Assembly: GCA_013360465.1 (NCBI GenBank)
Contig: JABWBO010000027.1
Location: 1-54,794 of the forward strand
Origin: Anaerolineae bacterium
GTDB taxonomy: Bacteria; Chloroflexota; Anaerolineae; Aggregatilineales; Phototrophicaceae
Reading direction: 5' to 3'
DNA: 54,794 nt
Shown: positions 8,081-13,053 of the stretch, piece by piece
Numbering within the stretch: position 1 is the stretch's first letter
Layout of the letters: each line of letters starts with the position of its first letter
Notes under the pieces: model-generated
The model's database searches: none
What the model was told of the DNA's origin: nothing
Seen by the model: the letters and a program-made list of their open reading frames with translations, nothing else
Made by a program: the position numbers and the translations under genes

Positions 8081-9501
8081 GCGAACGAGTCGTGATCTGG
8101 TGGATTCGTCGTGATCTGCGTCTTCACGACAATCTGGCTTTGCAGGAGGCACTGCGATCTGGCGGACGCATCGTCCCGCTGTTCATCCTTGATCCAGCGC
8201 TGCTGCGTGGAGAGCGTTTCGGGCTGCCGCGTCTGAAATTCATGTTGGCGGGGCTGCGGGCGCTTGACGAAGCTCTGCGAGCGCGCGGCGGGCGGCTCAT
8301 CGTTCGGCACGGCGATCCCCTGGCGATCCTCGGCGATCTTGTGGAGCGGATCGGGGCAGACGGAGTTTATGCGAACCGTGACTATTCGCCCTATGCCGTG
8401 CGGCGGGATACGGTGATCGCCAGCAAACTGGCTGTACCCGTACATTATTTCGACGACGCCCTGCTGCACGCGCCTGAGCATACGCTGAAAGGCGACGGAA
8501 CGCCGTTCGTCGTCTACACACCGTACAAGCGTCATTGGCTGACCTTACCGAAGCCTCTACCTCAGCATTACGTGATCGATCCTGACGTGTGGCATGACGC
8601 GGACGAAAGCGAGACGCCTCTGCCGACGCTTCATGGACTCGGTTATGGCGAAACGATCCCCGTGCCCGATGCGGGCGAGGATGCAGCGGCGCGCCGCCTG
8701 ACGGGTTTCATGAACACAGGCGTGTTGACCTACAAAGAGAATCGCGATGTGCTGGTGGGCGATCCATTTCGGGATGGGGGTGATGCAGGAACATCTGGAC
8801 TGTCGCCTTACCTACGCTTCGGCATGATTTCTCCGCGCCAGATGTATGCGGCGGCGGAAGAGGCACGAGAGCGGGCGGACAGCGCCAGCCAAAACGAATC
8901 TATCGACGTTTGGATCAGCGAAGTCGCCTGGCGCGAATTCTACATGACCATCCTCTTTCGCTTTCCTAACGCCTACGATACGAGTTTTCGTCAGGAGTTC
9001 GAGGGGGTCGCTTTTCGTCATGCGCCAGATGATCTTCTCGCCTGGCAGGAGGGGCGCACTGGTTATCCGGTTGTTGACGCGGCGATGCGCCAGCTTCACA
9101 CAACGGGTTGGATGCACAATCGCGCCCGCATGATCGTTGCCAACTTCCTGACCAAAGACCTCCTGATCTACTGGCGAGAAGGTGATGTATTCTTCATGAA
9201 GCATCTGATCGATGGCGATCCGGCGGCGAATAACGGCGGCTGGCAGTGGTCCGCCGGGACCGGGACCGACGCTCAGCCGTACTTTCGCGTGTTCAATCCG
9301 GTTGCGCAGTCGCAGAAGTTCGACCCGCAGGGGACGTATATTCGCCGGTGGCTGCCGGAACTCCGAGGCGTGCCCGACGCTCACATCCATGCTCCCTGGA
9401 CGATGAGCAGCCCGCCCGCAGATTACCCCGCTCCCCTGGTTGATCATCATGCCGCGCGTGCGCGCGCCCTGGAGACGTTCAAGGTTGTCAAGCGCGGTTG
9501 A
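8077..9501 (+). CDS. phr: Deoxyribodipyrimidine photolyase
   Basis: Light-dependent repair of cyclobutane pyrimidine dimers. The 474-residue cryptochrome/photolyase-family protein has the N-terminal antenna domain (WWIRRDLRLHDNLAL) and the FAD-binding catalytic domain with GLSPYLRFGMIS, EVAWREFY, GYPVVDAAMRQL, TGWMHNRARM and NGGWQWSAGTGTDAQPYFRVFNP, all signature segments of class I CPD photolyases. The GTG at 8077 overlaps the upstream stop. Last gene of the SRPBCC-crt-phr unit. Confidence 0.94.
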   Translation: MSERVVIWWIRRDLRLHDNLALQEALRSGGRIVPLFILDPALLRGERFGLPRLKFMLAGLRALDEALRARGGRLIVRHGDPLAILGDLVERIGADGVYANRDYSPYAVRRDTVIASKLAVPVHYFDDALLHAPEHTLKGDGTPFVVYTPYKRHWLTLPKPLPQHYVIDPDVWHDADESETPLPTLHGLGYGETIPVPDAGEDAAARRLTGFMNTGVLTYKENRDVLVGDPFRDGGDAGTSGLSPYLRFGMISPRQMYAAAEEARERADSASQNESIDVWISEVAWREFYMTILFRFPNAYDTSFRQEFEGVAFRHAPDDLLAWQEGRTGYPVVDAAMRQLHTTGWMHNRARMIVANFLTKDLLIYWREGDVFFMKHLIDGDPAANNGGWQWSAGTGTDAQPYFRVFNPVAQSQKFDPQGTYIRRWLPELRGVPDAHIHAPWTMSSPPADYPAPLVDHHAARARALETFKVVKRG

Positions 9502-9540: not shown

Positions 9541-9568
9541 TTGACAACGCATTTTTGCACGCTATCCT
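9541..9568 (+). promoter_or_regulatory. Promoter of the argGH attenuator leader
   Basis: Consensus TTGACA at 9541-9546 and TATCCT at 9563-9568, spacer 16 bases. Transcription would start near 9575-9577, almost exactly at the leader-peptide ATG (9577), so the leader may be translated leaderless. TATACT at 9571-9576 is an alternative -10, but its distance from TTGACA (24 bases) is too long. Confidence 0.6.
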
Positions 9569-9576
9569 TGTATACT

Positions 9577-9660
9577 ATGTTCATTCTGTCGCCCTGCCTC
9601 CGTATCCGTCGTCGCCGTACTCAAGACGAGTTCGGGGCGTTTGGCGTTCGCAGCGGTTGA
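9577..9660 (+). CDS. Arginine-rich leader peptide of the argGH attenuator
   Basis: 27-codon ORF, ATG 9577 to TGA 9658-9660, too short for routine gene calls. Codons 8-14 read LRIRRRR: Arg codons at 9601, 9607, 9610, 9613 and 9616 (CGT, CGT, CGT, CGC, CGT), plus one more at 9649. It lies between a consensus promoter and a strong intrinsic terminator, directly upstream of arginine biosynthesis genes. By analogy with trp, his and ilv leaders, ribosome stalling at the Arg run under arginine starvation would decide which RNA hairpin forms. No clear Shine-Dalgarno precedes it. The peptide itself is not expected to have a function. Confidence 0.75.
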   Translation: MFILSPCLRIRRRRTQDEFGAFGVRSG

Positions 9661-9710
9661 GAGCAGCTCTTGCGGTGAATGCAAAGACCCCGAACGCTTC
9701 GGGGTCTTTT
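9630..9710 (+). terminator. Attenuator: antiterminator segments and intrinsic terminator before argG
   Basis: The terminator is a perfect 12-bp stem, 9683-9694 / 9698-9709, with a CGC loop and a T-run at 9707-9710. Two upstream segments can pair with its 5' arm or loop instead: GTTCGGGG (9630-9637) with CCCCGAAC (9688-9695), and GCGTTCG (9644-9650) with CGAACGC (9691-9697). The second lies just before the leader stop codon, where a terminating ribosome would cover it. A ribosome stalled at the Arg codons (9601-9618) would leave both free, favouring readthrough. This mutually exclusive pairing is the signature of attenuation. Confidence 0.78.
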
Positions 9711-9760
9711 AATTTGCGGCGGCTGCGCCATGGCGGCTAAAAACACTCAAGGAGTACCCT

Positions 9761-11035: not shown

Positions 11036-12412
11036 ATGCTTTGGGGGGGAGCTTTTGAAGCGCCGACGGACGAACAGGTGCGTCGGCTGAATGACAGCAT
11101 CGGATACGACCGGCGGATGTACGCCGAGGATATTGCCGGCAGCATCGCCTATGCACGGGCAATTTCCACTGCCGGAGTCATCACACTTCAGGAAGCGGAG
11201 CAGATCGTTGCCGGCTTGGAACGGGTGCTAAACGAATTCGAGCGTGGCGAATTCCAGTTACAGCCTGCGGATGAAGACATCCATACAGCAGTGGAGCGCC
11301 GCCTGACCGAGATCGTCGGCGCAGTGGGCGGCAAGCTGCACACGGGACGCAGTCGCAATGATCAGGTGGCGACCGACTGGCGTTTATGGACGATGCACGC
11401 CATCGACCAGATTGTCGGGCAGGTTTTACTGCTCCAGAGGGCGATCCTCAGCCAGTCCGAAGCGCACTTCGAGACGCTCATGCCCGGATACACGCATTTG
11501 CAGCCTGCGCAGCCGGTGACGGCTGCCCACTGGCTGCTCAGCTACTTCTGGATGCTGGTGCGCGATGTCGAACGTTTGGACGATGCGCGGCGGCGTACTG
11601 CGGAATGCCCCTTGGGGTCCGGGGCGCTCGCCGGGACTCCATTTGCGATTGATCGGGTTGCGCTGGCGCAGGCATTAGGATTTGTCGCGCCGACGCGGAA
11701 CAGTCTGGACGGAGTCAGCGACCGCGACTTCGTGGCAGAGGCGCTTTTTGTGCTATCGCTGATCGGGATTCATCTGAGCCGGTTGGCTGAAGACATCGTC
11801 ATCTTCAGCAACCCAGCGTTTGGTTTCATCAGGCTCGATGATCGCTACAGTACCGGGTCGAGCCTGATGCCGCAGAAGCGCAACGCCGATCCGATGGAGT
11901 TGGCACGAGGCAAAGCGGGACGCCTGATCGGGAACCTGACCGGGCTGCTAACCGTCTTGAAGGGGTTGCCGACGAGCTACAATAAGGACCTTCAGGAGGA
12001 CAAGGAGTCGCTCCTGGACTCCGTCGATACGCTGATGGGACTGCTGCCGGTGGTGACGGCGGTCGTTCATACGCTGAAGCTTAACCCGGAGCGGATGCAG
12101 CAGGCGCTCGACGAATCGATGCTGGCGACAGACCTGGCGGACTATCTTGTGAAGCGCGGGATGCCGTTCAGAGAGGCGCATGGAGTCAGTGGTCGGGTTG
12201 TACGCCGTGCCGGCGAACTGGGCGTTGGGCTTTCCAGGGTGCCGCTGGAAGATCTGCAGGCGCTGTCGCCATTGTTTGATGCGGACGTTGCAACCATCTT
12301 CGATTTTGCGGCGTCGGCGGCGCGCCGTAAGGCGCTCGGCGGCACTGCGCCGGAAGCCGTGCAGCGGCAGTGGGCGGATGCTCGGCAGTGGATACAGAGT
12401 CGAGGCGGATGA
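11036..12412 (+). CDS. argH: Argininosuccinate lyase
   Basis: Cleaves argininosuccinate to arginine and fumarate, the last step of arginine synthesis. Fumarase/aspartase superfamily protein of 458 residues with HTGRSRNDQVATD, the catalytic-His region MPGYTHLQPAQPVTAAHWL, and the mobile signature loop GSSLMPQKRNAD. It begins LWGGAFEAPTDEQV like other ArgH proteins (the family opening is usually LWGGRF). Co-transcribed with argG, so both are controlled by the upstream leader. Confidence 0.96.
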   Translation: MLWGGAFEAPTDEQVRRLNDSIGYDRRMYAEDIAGSIAYARAISTAGVITLQEAEQIVAGLERVLNEFERGEFQLQPADEDIHTAVERRLTEIVGAVGGKLHTGRSRNDQVATDWRLWTMHAIDQIVGQVLLLQRAILSQSEAHFETLMPGYTHLQPAQPVTAAHWLLSYFWMLVRDVERLDDARRRTAECPLGSGALAGTPFAIDRVALAQALGFVAPTRNSLDGVSDRDFVAEALFVLSLIGIHLSRLAEDIVIFSNPAFGFIRLDDRYSTGSSLMPQKRNADPMELARGKAGRLIGNLTGLLTVLKGLPTSYNKDLQEDKESLLDSVDTLMGLLPVVTAVVHTLKLNPERMQQALDESMLATDLADYLVKRGMPFREAHGVSGRVVRRAGELGVGLSRVPLEDLQALSPLFDADVATIFDFAASAARRKALGGTAPEAVQRQWADARQWIQSRGG

Positions 12413-12583: not shown

Positions 12584-12667
12584 ATGAAGCCGCACGTCCA
12601 GATCGACCTCCTCAGCCTTAGCATTATTCTTGGCGTACTCGCGCTTATCATTAGCGGCGGGTTATAG
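12584..12667 (+). CDS. Leu/Ile/Val-rich leader peptide of the ilv-leu attenuator
   Basis: 27-codon ORF, ATG 12584 to TAG 12665-12667. Fourteen codons are Leu, Ile or Val, with the core IDLLSLSIILGVLALII. It sits 29 bases after the predicted transcription start, ahead of an intrinsic terminator and of nine branched-chain amino acid genes, matching the design of the enterobacterial ilvGMEDA, ilvBN and leu leaders. No convincing Shine-Dalgarno is visible. The hydrophobic string could also be read as a tiny membrane peptide, but its codon bias towards exactly the operon's end products, plus the RNA structure, favours a stalling leader. Confidence 0.75.
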   Translation: MKPHVQIDLLSLSIILGVLALIISGGL

Positions 12668-12739
12668 GGGCTTGTCTGGCGTAAGACACAGGTTGAAACA
12701 AACGCAAACGACAAAGCCCCCTTCAACAGGGGGCTTTTT
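12667..12739 (+). terminator. Attenuator: antiterminator and intrinsic terminator of the ilv-leu leader
   Basis: The terminator is a 10-bp stem AAAGCCCCCT (12713-12722) / AGGGGGCTTT (12728-12737) with a 5-base loop and T-run 12735-12739. Upstream GGGGCTTGTC (12667-12676), starting on the last base of the leader stop codon, pairs with GACAAAGCCCC (12710-12720) over 10 bp with one bulged A, destroying the terminator. A ribosome that finishes the leader covers 12667-12676 and lets the terminator form. A ribosome stalled earlier leaves it free to antiterminate. Confidence 0.8.
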
Positions 12740-12744
12740 GTTGG

Positions 12745-12993
12745 GAGGACGCGCACCCATGTTTCATAATCATCAGCGCTCAGAGCGGCAGTGTTCGATG
12801 ACACATACAGCCTCACGCTGTCCCGCGCGTCCTCAGGCGGCGTCCCAATCGATGTCGCCCCGCAGCCAACAGCCCCGGGCATGGCGCGCGTCCGCCGCAG
12901 AACGCCAGCGCTCAGCCCGAAACGCGCTTTCTGAAGTTTGCAGCCGGAAGAGTGATTTCCCGGCGGTGGATTGCAGAAAGCGCGTTTTCTTTT
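12745..12993 (+). ncRNA. Structured leader segment ending in a second intrinsic terminator
   Basis: After the attenuator, the leader holds a 10-bp long-range stem GAGGACGCGC (12745-12754) / GCGCGTCCTC (12825-12834). A 14-bp perfect stem follows, 12920-12933 / 12974-12987, whose 40-base loop contains a nested GCCGG/CCGGC hairpin (12943-12947 / 12960-12964). A T-rich tail (about 12985-12996) follows. It resembles a second terminator. It could be a tandem riboregulator or the end of a separate small RNA. No T-box, SRP, RNase P or 6S signature was recognised. Confidence 0.45.
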
Positions 12994-13053
12994 TTGAACC
13001 GCGTTCTACGCATAAGACTCATGCGCATTGAAGTACTTCCAAGGAGAGAATAA

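Follow-up and report, generated by a model that had tools for sequence, protein, structure and literature searches.

The window analysed here is the whole stretch of 54,794 nt from contig JABWBO010000027.1 of an Anaerolineae bacterium; among named argG records the nearest, at 99% identity, is that of an Anaerolineae MAG. In this window the genes argG and argH lie downstream of the photolyase gene phr, which has the same orientation and ends at 9501, and the space between phr and argG holds a small ORF with clustered arginine codons and, after it, an intrinsic terminator. The features of the region are as follows:

9541-9568, forward strand: sigma-70-like promoter, with TTGACA (9541-9546), a 16-nt spacer and TATCCT (9563-9568)
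9577-9660, forward strand: leader peptide ORF MFILSPCLRIRRRRTQDEFGAFGVRSG, 27 codons, with the transcript start predicted at the ATG or within about 2 nt of it
9590-9602, forward strand: segment 1 (protector), paired with 9633-9646 in MFE folds of the free leader, that is, when no ribosome is stalled
9601-9618, forward strand: control codons CGT ATC CGT CGT CGC CGT, with Arg at codons 9, 11, 12, 13 and 14
9630-9637, forward strand: segment 2, the 5' strand GTTCGGGG of the putative antiterminator, within leader codons 18-21; partner 9688-9695
9640-9685, forward strand: inner helices of the computed antiterminator (9645-9651/9675-9681 and 9640-9643/9682-9685), from the MFE of RNA free from 9627
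9683-9709, forward strand: intrinsic terminator AAAGACCCCGAA-CGC-TTCGGGGTCTTT followed by TAATTT, a perfect 12-bp stem with a 3-nt loop
9761-11023, forward strand: argG, argininosuccinate synthase, a gene predicted to be regulated (NF001770 and TIGR00032 above cut-off)
11036-12412, forward strand: argH, argininosuccinate lyase, likewise predicted to be regulated (TIGR00838 above cut-off)

The initial annotation had read this region as an arginine attenuator. Its coordinates for promoter, ORF, terminator and pairing segments were right when the sequence was re-read, and the 27-codon ORF with five Arg codons within codons 9-14 is present as described. The locus thus has, in front of the pathway genes, an ORF in which codons for the end product are clustered, and an intrinsic terminator between this ORF and argG, as is expected of an attenuator. 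According to the promoter scan, the argG promoter hexamers match the consensus at 10 of 12 positions, a match that is weak if taken alone, since 0.8 promoters are expected by the scan rule in the 2 kb scanned. The hairpin scan gives the terminator at 9683-9709 an energy of -17.7 kcal/mol. The U-run on its 3' side is short, which is a point against an attenuator and evidently the reason why the promoter/terminator scanner called no terminator in the leader stretch (1.5 expected in shuffles). As a whole, the sequence from 9577 to 9720 folds better than its shuffles (z -2.18), 3 of 200 shuffles being equally good.

Two upstream segments had been proposed to pair with the terminator, and the first of them was borne out by covariation and by a computed fold switch. 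GTTCGGGG at 9630-9637 is complementary over 8 bp to CCCCGAAC at 9688-9695, overlapping the 5' arm of the terminator. The second segment, GCGTTCG at 9644-9650, can form 7 bp with 9691-9697, but this pairing and that of 9630-9637 are mutually exclusive, and it went unused in the computed folds, where the antiterminator places 9645-9651 on 9675-9681 instead. The MFE of the free leader contains a 5' hairpin (9590-9602 with 9633-9646) together with the terminator; this protector pairing of segment 1 with segment 2 was seen in the leader at 9577. In RNA free from 9627 or 9617, the state expected ahead of a ribosome held up in the Arg run, the antiterminator 9630-9637/9688-9695 and the inner helices form even with the whole terminator present. 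The terminator is computed to form when the free RNA begins at 9632, and also when a ribosome sits at the stop codon. With a fixed ribosome edge, the MFE switches for stalls at Arg codons 11, 12 and 13, and for none at 9 or 14.

Upstream regions of argG were gathered from the genus, family, order, class and phylum as well as from named genomes. The genus and family loci represent 89 of 91 matches. The 81 class loci, drawn from matches in 240 of 298 genomes, are mostly those closest to the argG of the window, the 40 phylum loci were picked by hand, and the loci of named genomes come from the best 80 matches. Twelve near-duplicates and five loci with less than 200 nt upstream (L050, L083, L205, L216 and L252) were dropped from the count; the last of these has an Arg leader and a terminator. 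An Arg-run leader was defined as an ORF of 9-36 codons with at least three Arg in seven codons and a strong terminator within 200 nt. This gave the following counts:

genus: 13 loci, 7 with a strong terminator, 7 with an Arg-run ORF
family: 72 loci, 21 with a strong terminator, 15 with an Arg-run ORF
order: 5 loci, 2 with a strong terminator, 1 with an Arg-run ORF
rest of the class: 78 loci, 30 with a strong terminator, 18 with an Arg-run ORF
named Chloroflexota: 12 loci, 8 with a strong terminator, 7 with an Arg-run ORF
phylum outside the class: 38 loci, 5 with a strong terminator, 5 with an Arg-run ORF

In total, a strong terminator was found at 73 of 218 Chloroflexota argG loci, and the distribution is patchy, with 145 loci lacking one. 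The initial annotation had made its reading depend on whether relatives keep the short ORF and the terminator; both occur together at 53 of the 73 terminator loci, compared with 18.9 ± 3.1 in shuffled sequences (maximum 28 in 100 shuffles). When at least four Arg in seven codons are required, 33 of 73 loci remain against a shuffled 3.6 ± 1.8 (maximum 9). The next amino acid is Val, with 14 loci against 4.9 expected; out of frame, CGT CGT is read as Val. One locus that was counted as positive, L118, is doubtful, as its promoter runs straight into the terminator. The same-genus locus L112 has neither a terminator nor a clear leader before argG, and both there and at L122 a promoter was seen by eye directly before the gene. 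In the cultured Anaerolinea thermolimosa (L035), the device is present in a weak form only, with two Arg and a Lys.

Two loci, L180 and L181, and likewise the doubtful L118, have kept the promoter and the terminator without a real Arg leader, the terminator almost abutting the promoter. These arrangements may be remnants or serve a different control.

The device was also looked for outside the Chloroflexota. Among the best 80 matches, 59 loci belong to other phyla, mostly Clostridia, and these hold 7 terminators and 1 Arg ORF. Candidatus Neomarinimicrobiota, the phylum of the named locus L047, has an argG match in 39 of 80 genomes; 30 of these loci were taken and 29 were usable, and all 5 strong terminators found there come with an Arg-run ORF (shuffled 0.94, maximum 3), in two cases only if GTG or TTG is allowed as the start codon. 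The two named loci L046 and L047 carry the leaders MVEFSRRRSRLSAGTGTLL and MQEDRRRYRIRRNKLHQEFRSREDCT, and L365 is the L047 locus.

The 53 leaders have diverged in sequence and kept their logic. Leaders of the family share a common core, for example RRIRRRRT, with terminators such as ACCCCGGAC...GTTCGGGGT, and the stretch CGTATCCGTCGTCGCCGTACT of the Arg-run control codons is strongly conserved in the family alignment A1. Leaders of the Anaerolineales type read ALPRTRRPK and are combined with the terminator GCCCTCC-TTCTC-GGAGGGC and the antiterminator CGAGAAGG, while in another leader group CGTCTGG pairs with CCAGACA. Among the 232 Arg codons of the leaders, 112 are CGT and 72 CGC; in six genes of the window used for comparison, CGT accounts for 40 of 207. 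A subgroup within the class (L195, L196, L210, L220 and L030) shares the terminator AACCACGAT...ATCGTGGTT; its Arg leaders are very short (MKFQRRRRN, MKTIRRRSTIGSEIRPQV), and the duplex test found no convincing antiterminator in L195, L196, L210 and L220, the four of the subgroup to which it was applied.

This variety bears on the alternative that survives best, namely that the nascent Arg-rich peptide itself arrests the ribosome, either by sensing free arginine or through its positive charge; the RNA switch would then be the same and the signal a different one. A polybasic peptide stretch could slow the ribosome, and the family core R-I-R-R-R-R-T is conserved beyond the need of a mere Arg count. 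Outside the family, however, the peptide is wholly different (PRTRRPK, RRRSRRP, IRRRS) while the Arg codons persist, which suits codon sensing, and the extra conservation within the family extends to synonymous sites, which suggests a constraint on the RNA. We consider arrest by the peptide improbable and prefer the sensing of charged arginyl-tRNA at the Arg codons.

Covariation was assessed in the leaders of the family, both in alignment A1, which holds 18 of 23 leaders (L004, L121, L165, L115 and L113 left out), and in a recount of all 23 extracted leaders; L005, L009 and L130 are in neither set. In the 18 leaders, 84.0% of the cells of the antiterminator helix are paired (80.4 in shuffles) and the covariation score is 0.190 against a shuffled mean of 0.114, a value reached by 0 of 500 shuffles, which ignore the relatedness among the leaders. 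With all 23 leaders, 80.9% of cells are paired and the score is 0.165 against 0.108, again reached by 0 of 500 shuffles. Versions of the helix slid out of register were all lower in both cells paired and score, with 18 leaders as well as with 23, and in the 18 leaders three of the eight antiterminator pairs change on both sides, which 8 of 500 shuffles reached. The count of pair types is unimpressive: 82 and 180 of the 500 shuffles match it, and a slide by +3 has more pair types than the true register (7 versus 6 in the 18 leaders). Column 75/139 of the A1 antiterminator is unpaired in 10 of 18 leaders. The telling column is one where A in the terminator arm mostly goes with U in the antiterminator and G mostly with C (UA 5, CG 10, UG 2 of 18), and where the terminator's own partner is often in a G-U pair (6 of 18). 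The terminator pairs covary in A1 as well, which together with the hairpin energy supports the 12-bp terminator. Covarying alternative stems, which the initial annotation had named as a check, are present in relatives.

When the 53 leaders were folded, the terminator formed in 52 of them as free RNA and in all 53 when a ribosome occupied the stop codon. Stalling at the final Arg codon breaks the terminator in 11 of 53 leaders (1.1 expected), and in equilibrium folds only 20 of 53 lose it for a stall at any Arg codon. The strength of the antiterminator duplex has a mean z of -1.88 over 51 leaders, a set that includes the near-duplicates L008, L111 and L141 and is without L005, L009, L015 and L030; p≤0.05 is reached in 28 of 51, the other 23 duplexes not being significant singly. 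An antiterminator exclusive of the terminator, as a ribosome-mediated attenuator has it, is hence indicated by the covariation and by the fold switch.

A promoter matching the consensus at 9 or more of 12 positions precedes 38 of 55 leaders, that of the window included, whereas shuffled upstream DNA gives a mean of 2.0 (maximum 5). The distance from the end of the -10 hexamer to the leader start codon has a median of 8 nt, and at 32 of 55 leaders the promoter lies 6-10 nt from the start codon (shuffled 0.4, maximum 2). With transcription starting about 7 nt past the -10 hexamer, the 5' end would fall at or beside the AUG. The promoter spacing therefore implies that the mRNA of the leader peptide is leaderless, in line with the earlier suggestion that the leader, with a start point almost at the ATG, is read without a Shine-Dalgarno site. 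A similar arrangement is described for the trpL attenuator of Sinorhizobium meliloti (rnTrpL/peTrpL), whose RNA has its 5' end at the ATG of the leader ORF according to the passages on this RNA in PMC7298713. That system differs in being specific for tryptophan, in belonging to Alphaproteobacteria and in having a start determined by experiment, where that of the argG leader is predicted (PMC7298713).

A second arginine leader of different build was found in the same genome. The argC gene on contig C51 (L299) has its own leader MQPLPVCSSRRRSRRPLTTEVKPGALA and a terminator, in the interval from about 212 to 62 nt before the argC match, and GAGGTCA is complementary to TGACCTC; leader, terminator and antiterminator are all different from those of argG. 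In the genus, 11 of 16 argC-family loci have a strong terminator, all 11 with an Arg leader (shuffled 3.6 ± 1.5) and 8 of 11 with an antiterminator at p≤0.05. In a class sample of the best-scoring 30 loci, 18 of 19 terminator loci have an Arg leader (shuffled 4.9 ± 2.2), and the antiterminator reaches p≤0.05 in 8 of 18. Adding L331, L338 and L357, which have short upstream regions and all carry a terminator, changes the class count to 19 of 22, as only L338 has an Arg leader. Four argC-family loci, from A. thermolimosa and from the genomes of L046 and L047, showed no such leader, and none was found in 14 loci examined for carA, which lies about 5 kb downstream of argC in the genome of the window. 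By eye, some of the argC-family loci that lack the device resemble LysY-type paralogs.

These counts also weigh on the view that the terminator merely closes the transcription of phr, or is a hairpin in a 5' UTR with some other function, and that the Arg ORF is a product of chance in GC-rich DNA. CGN codons are common in such DNA, shuffles at three Arg in seven already yield about a quarter of the terminator loci (18.9 of 73, as given above), and phr lies upstream on the same strand. Against this stand the promoter located between phr and the terminator, the covarying antiterminator, the similar device before argC, and an excess of Arg leaders over both shuffles and natural control terminators. 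The latter comprised 149 further terminator-like sites, taken from either strand of 65 of the loci, with 24 Arg runs and 2 sites with at least four Arg, one of which, on the minus strand of L037, is simply the argG terminator read from the opposite strand. A chance ORF beside an unrelated terminator was rejected on the shuffle and control-terminator counts, and we hold this explanation to be very unlikely.

The repressor ArgR was sought by profile search in assemblies of varying completeness (97% for the genome of the window). Its C-terminal arginine-binding domain, PF02863, was found in 0 of 15 genus genomes and 0 of 150 class genomes; applied to 14 control genomes, this search was positive in 8. 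The DNA-binding domain PF01316 was not found in the own genome nor in the 14 other genus genomes; among 151 order genomes, 12 gave matches at E≤0.001, 6 of them over the cut-off and all partial. Genomes of family f2 (e.g. L137, L138) contain ORFs of about 112 aa with a partial ArgR-N-like match over the cut-off.

In Firmicutes, a terminator upstream of an arg gene may be part of a T-box. Control of the present terminator by such a T-box, by another aptamer riboswitch or by a protein like ArgR is nevertheless scarcely probable, as no Rfam family, and hence no curated covariance model of a T-box, matches at the gathering threshold anywhere in the window, the PF02863 result speaks against membership in an ArgR/AhrC regulon, and only 133 nt lie between the leader ATG and the end of the terminator, 84 of them coding.

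Ribosome-mediated attenuation before argGH, the core claim of the initial annotation, is supported by the Arg leaders in relatives, the covariation, the fold switch, the argC device and the failure to find ArgR. We posit that the argGH leader is very probably a ribosome-mediated transcription attenuator that couples expression to charged arginyl-tRNA. Judging from the promoter spacing, transcription would start at or next to the leader ATG, and a ribosome would initiate on the leaderless AUG and translate the leader peptide. With ample Arg-tRNA, the ribosome would clear the Arg codons, reach the stop codon and leave; segment 2 (9630-9639) would be masked or paired with segment 1 (9590-9602), the terminator at 9683-9709 would form as in the computed folds, and transcription would presumably end near 9710. 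With scarce Arg-tRNA, the ribosome would probably stall in the Arg run and cover segment 1, leaving the RNA free from 9630 onward. Covariation and folding suggest that 9630-9637 would then pair with 9688-9695 and block the terminator, upon which argGH would be transcribed by readthrough.

The same window holds a further leader of a related kind. A branched-chain leader peptide, MKPHVQIDLLSLSIILGVLALIISGGL (12584-12667), and a terminator (12713-12737) precede ilvE-ilvB-ilvN, an arrangement (12584-12740) that looks like a classical ilv attenuator. A stall in the ilv leader, folded in a single register, did not break the terminator. Between the ilv terminator and ilvE, a second long inverted repeat with a T-rich run behind it was seen by eye at 12915-12995 (AACGCGCTTTCT ... 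AGAAAGCGCGTT), possibly a tandem terminator.

Amino-acid leader attenuators of the trp, his, leu, ilv, thr and phe operons combine a run of end-product codons with a mutually exclusive antiterminator and terminator before the operon. The argGH leader resembles these trp-type attenuators in its short ORF, its end-product codons and its exclusive antiterminator and terminator just upstream of the operon. It differs from them in its specificity for arginine, its occurrence in Chloroflexota and Marinimicrobiota, its predicted leaderless start and the fact that ArgR was not found. The fungal arginine attenuator peptide (arg-2/CPA1 uORF) is a conserved arrest peptide and not a mere run of Arg codons. 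It likewise controls arginine biosynthesis through an arginine-related uORF, but by eukaryotic translational arrest in response to free arginine and without a terminator switch. The argGH leader was not assigned to this type, its peptide varying among lineages while the Arg run persists, with a core conserved within the family.

Three further bacterial leaders described in the literature are similar in part. In the orf34 leader of Salmonella speF, pausing at consecutive Arg codons under low arginine alters RNA folding, as would a ribosome pause at the Arg codons of the argGH leader; the passages of PMC6386406 on orf34 name ornithine decarboxylase as the target and involve Rho, translation and RNase G, with no intrinsic terminator in front of genes for arginine synthesis. 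In Staphylococcus aureus, rbfL also senses arginine limitation through Arg codons of a leader peptide, but, in the description of rbfL in PMC13009471, it occludes the rbf ribosome binding site, with neither transcription attenuation nor an arg operon. Pseudomonas carAB shares a leader peptide and possible attenuation before a gene of arginine and pyrimidine synthesis, whereas the section of PMC4997734 on carAB ascribes the attenuation to pyrimidines and has arginine act at the transcriptional level. The main text of PMC2965389 contains neither 'arginine' nor 'argG'. No report of an Arg-codon transcription attenuator before arginine biosynthetic genes was found in the open-access literature searched. 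The mechanism itself is known from trp-type attenuation, and the arginine specificity is new as far as this literature goes.

Arginine biosynthesis is a textbook case of control by a repressor (ArgR), and to our knowledge arginine is absent from the usual list of attenuated pathways. The argG attenuator and the differently built one at argC may together make up a small regulon for arginine, and no ArgR was found in this lineage. Going further, we lean towards the view that leader-peptide attenuation is the main arginine control of Anaerolineae in place of ArgR, with a regulon of argGH and argC that is leaderless before argG, with switch sequences that turn over fast, and with the same solution reached in other Chloroflexota and part of the Marinimicrobiota by descent, transfer or convergence. 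If this is true, arginine would join the list of attenuated pathways, and it would be explained how Chloroflexota without detectable ArgR could regulate the arginine pathway. Dozens of diverged natural variants would become available for relating stall position, antiterminator and leaderless initiation to each other, and leader peptides that are easily overlooked in annotation would be predicted.
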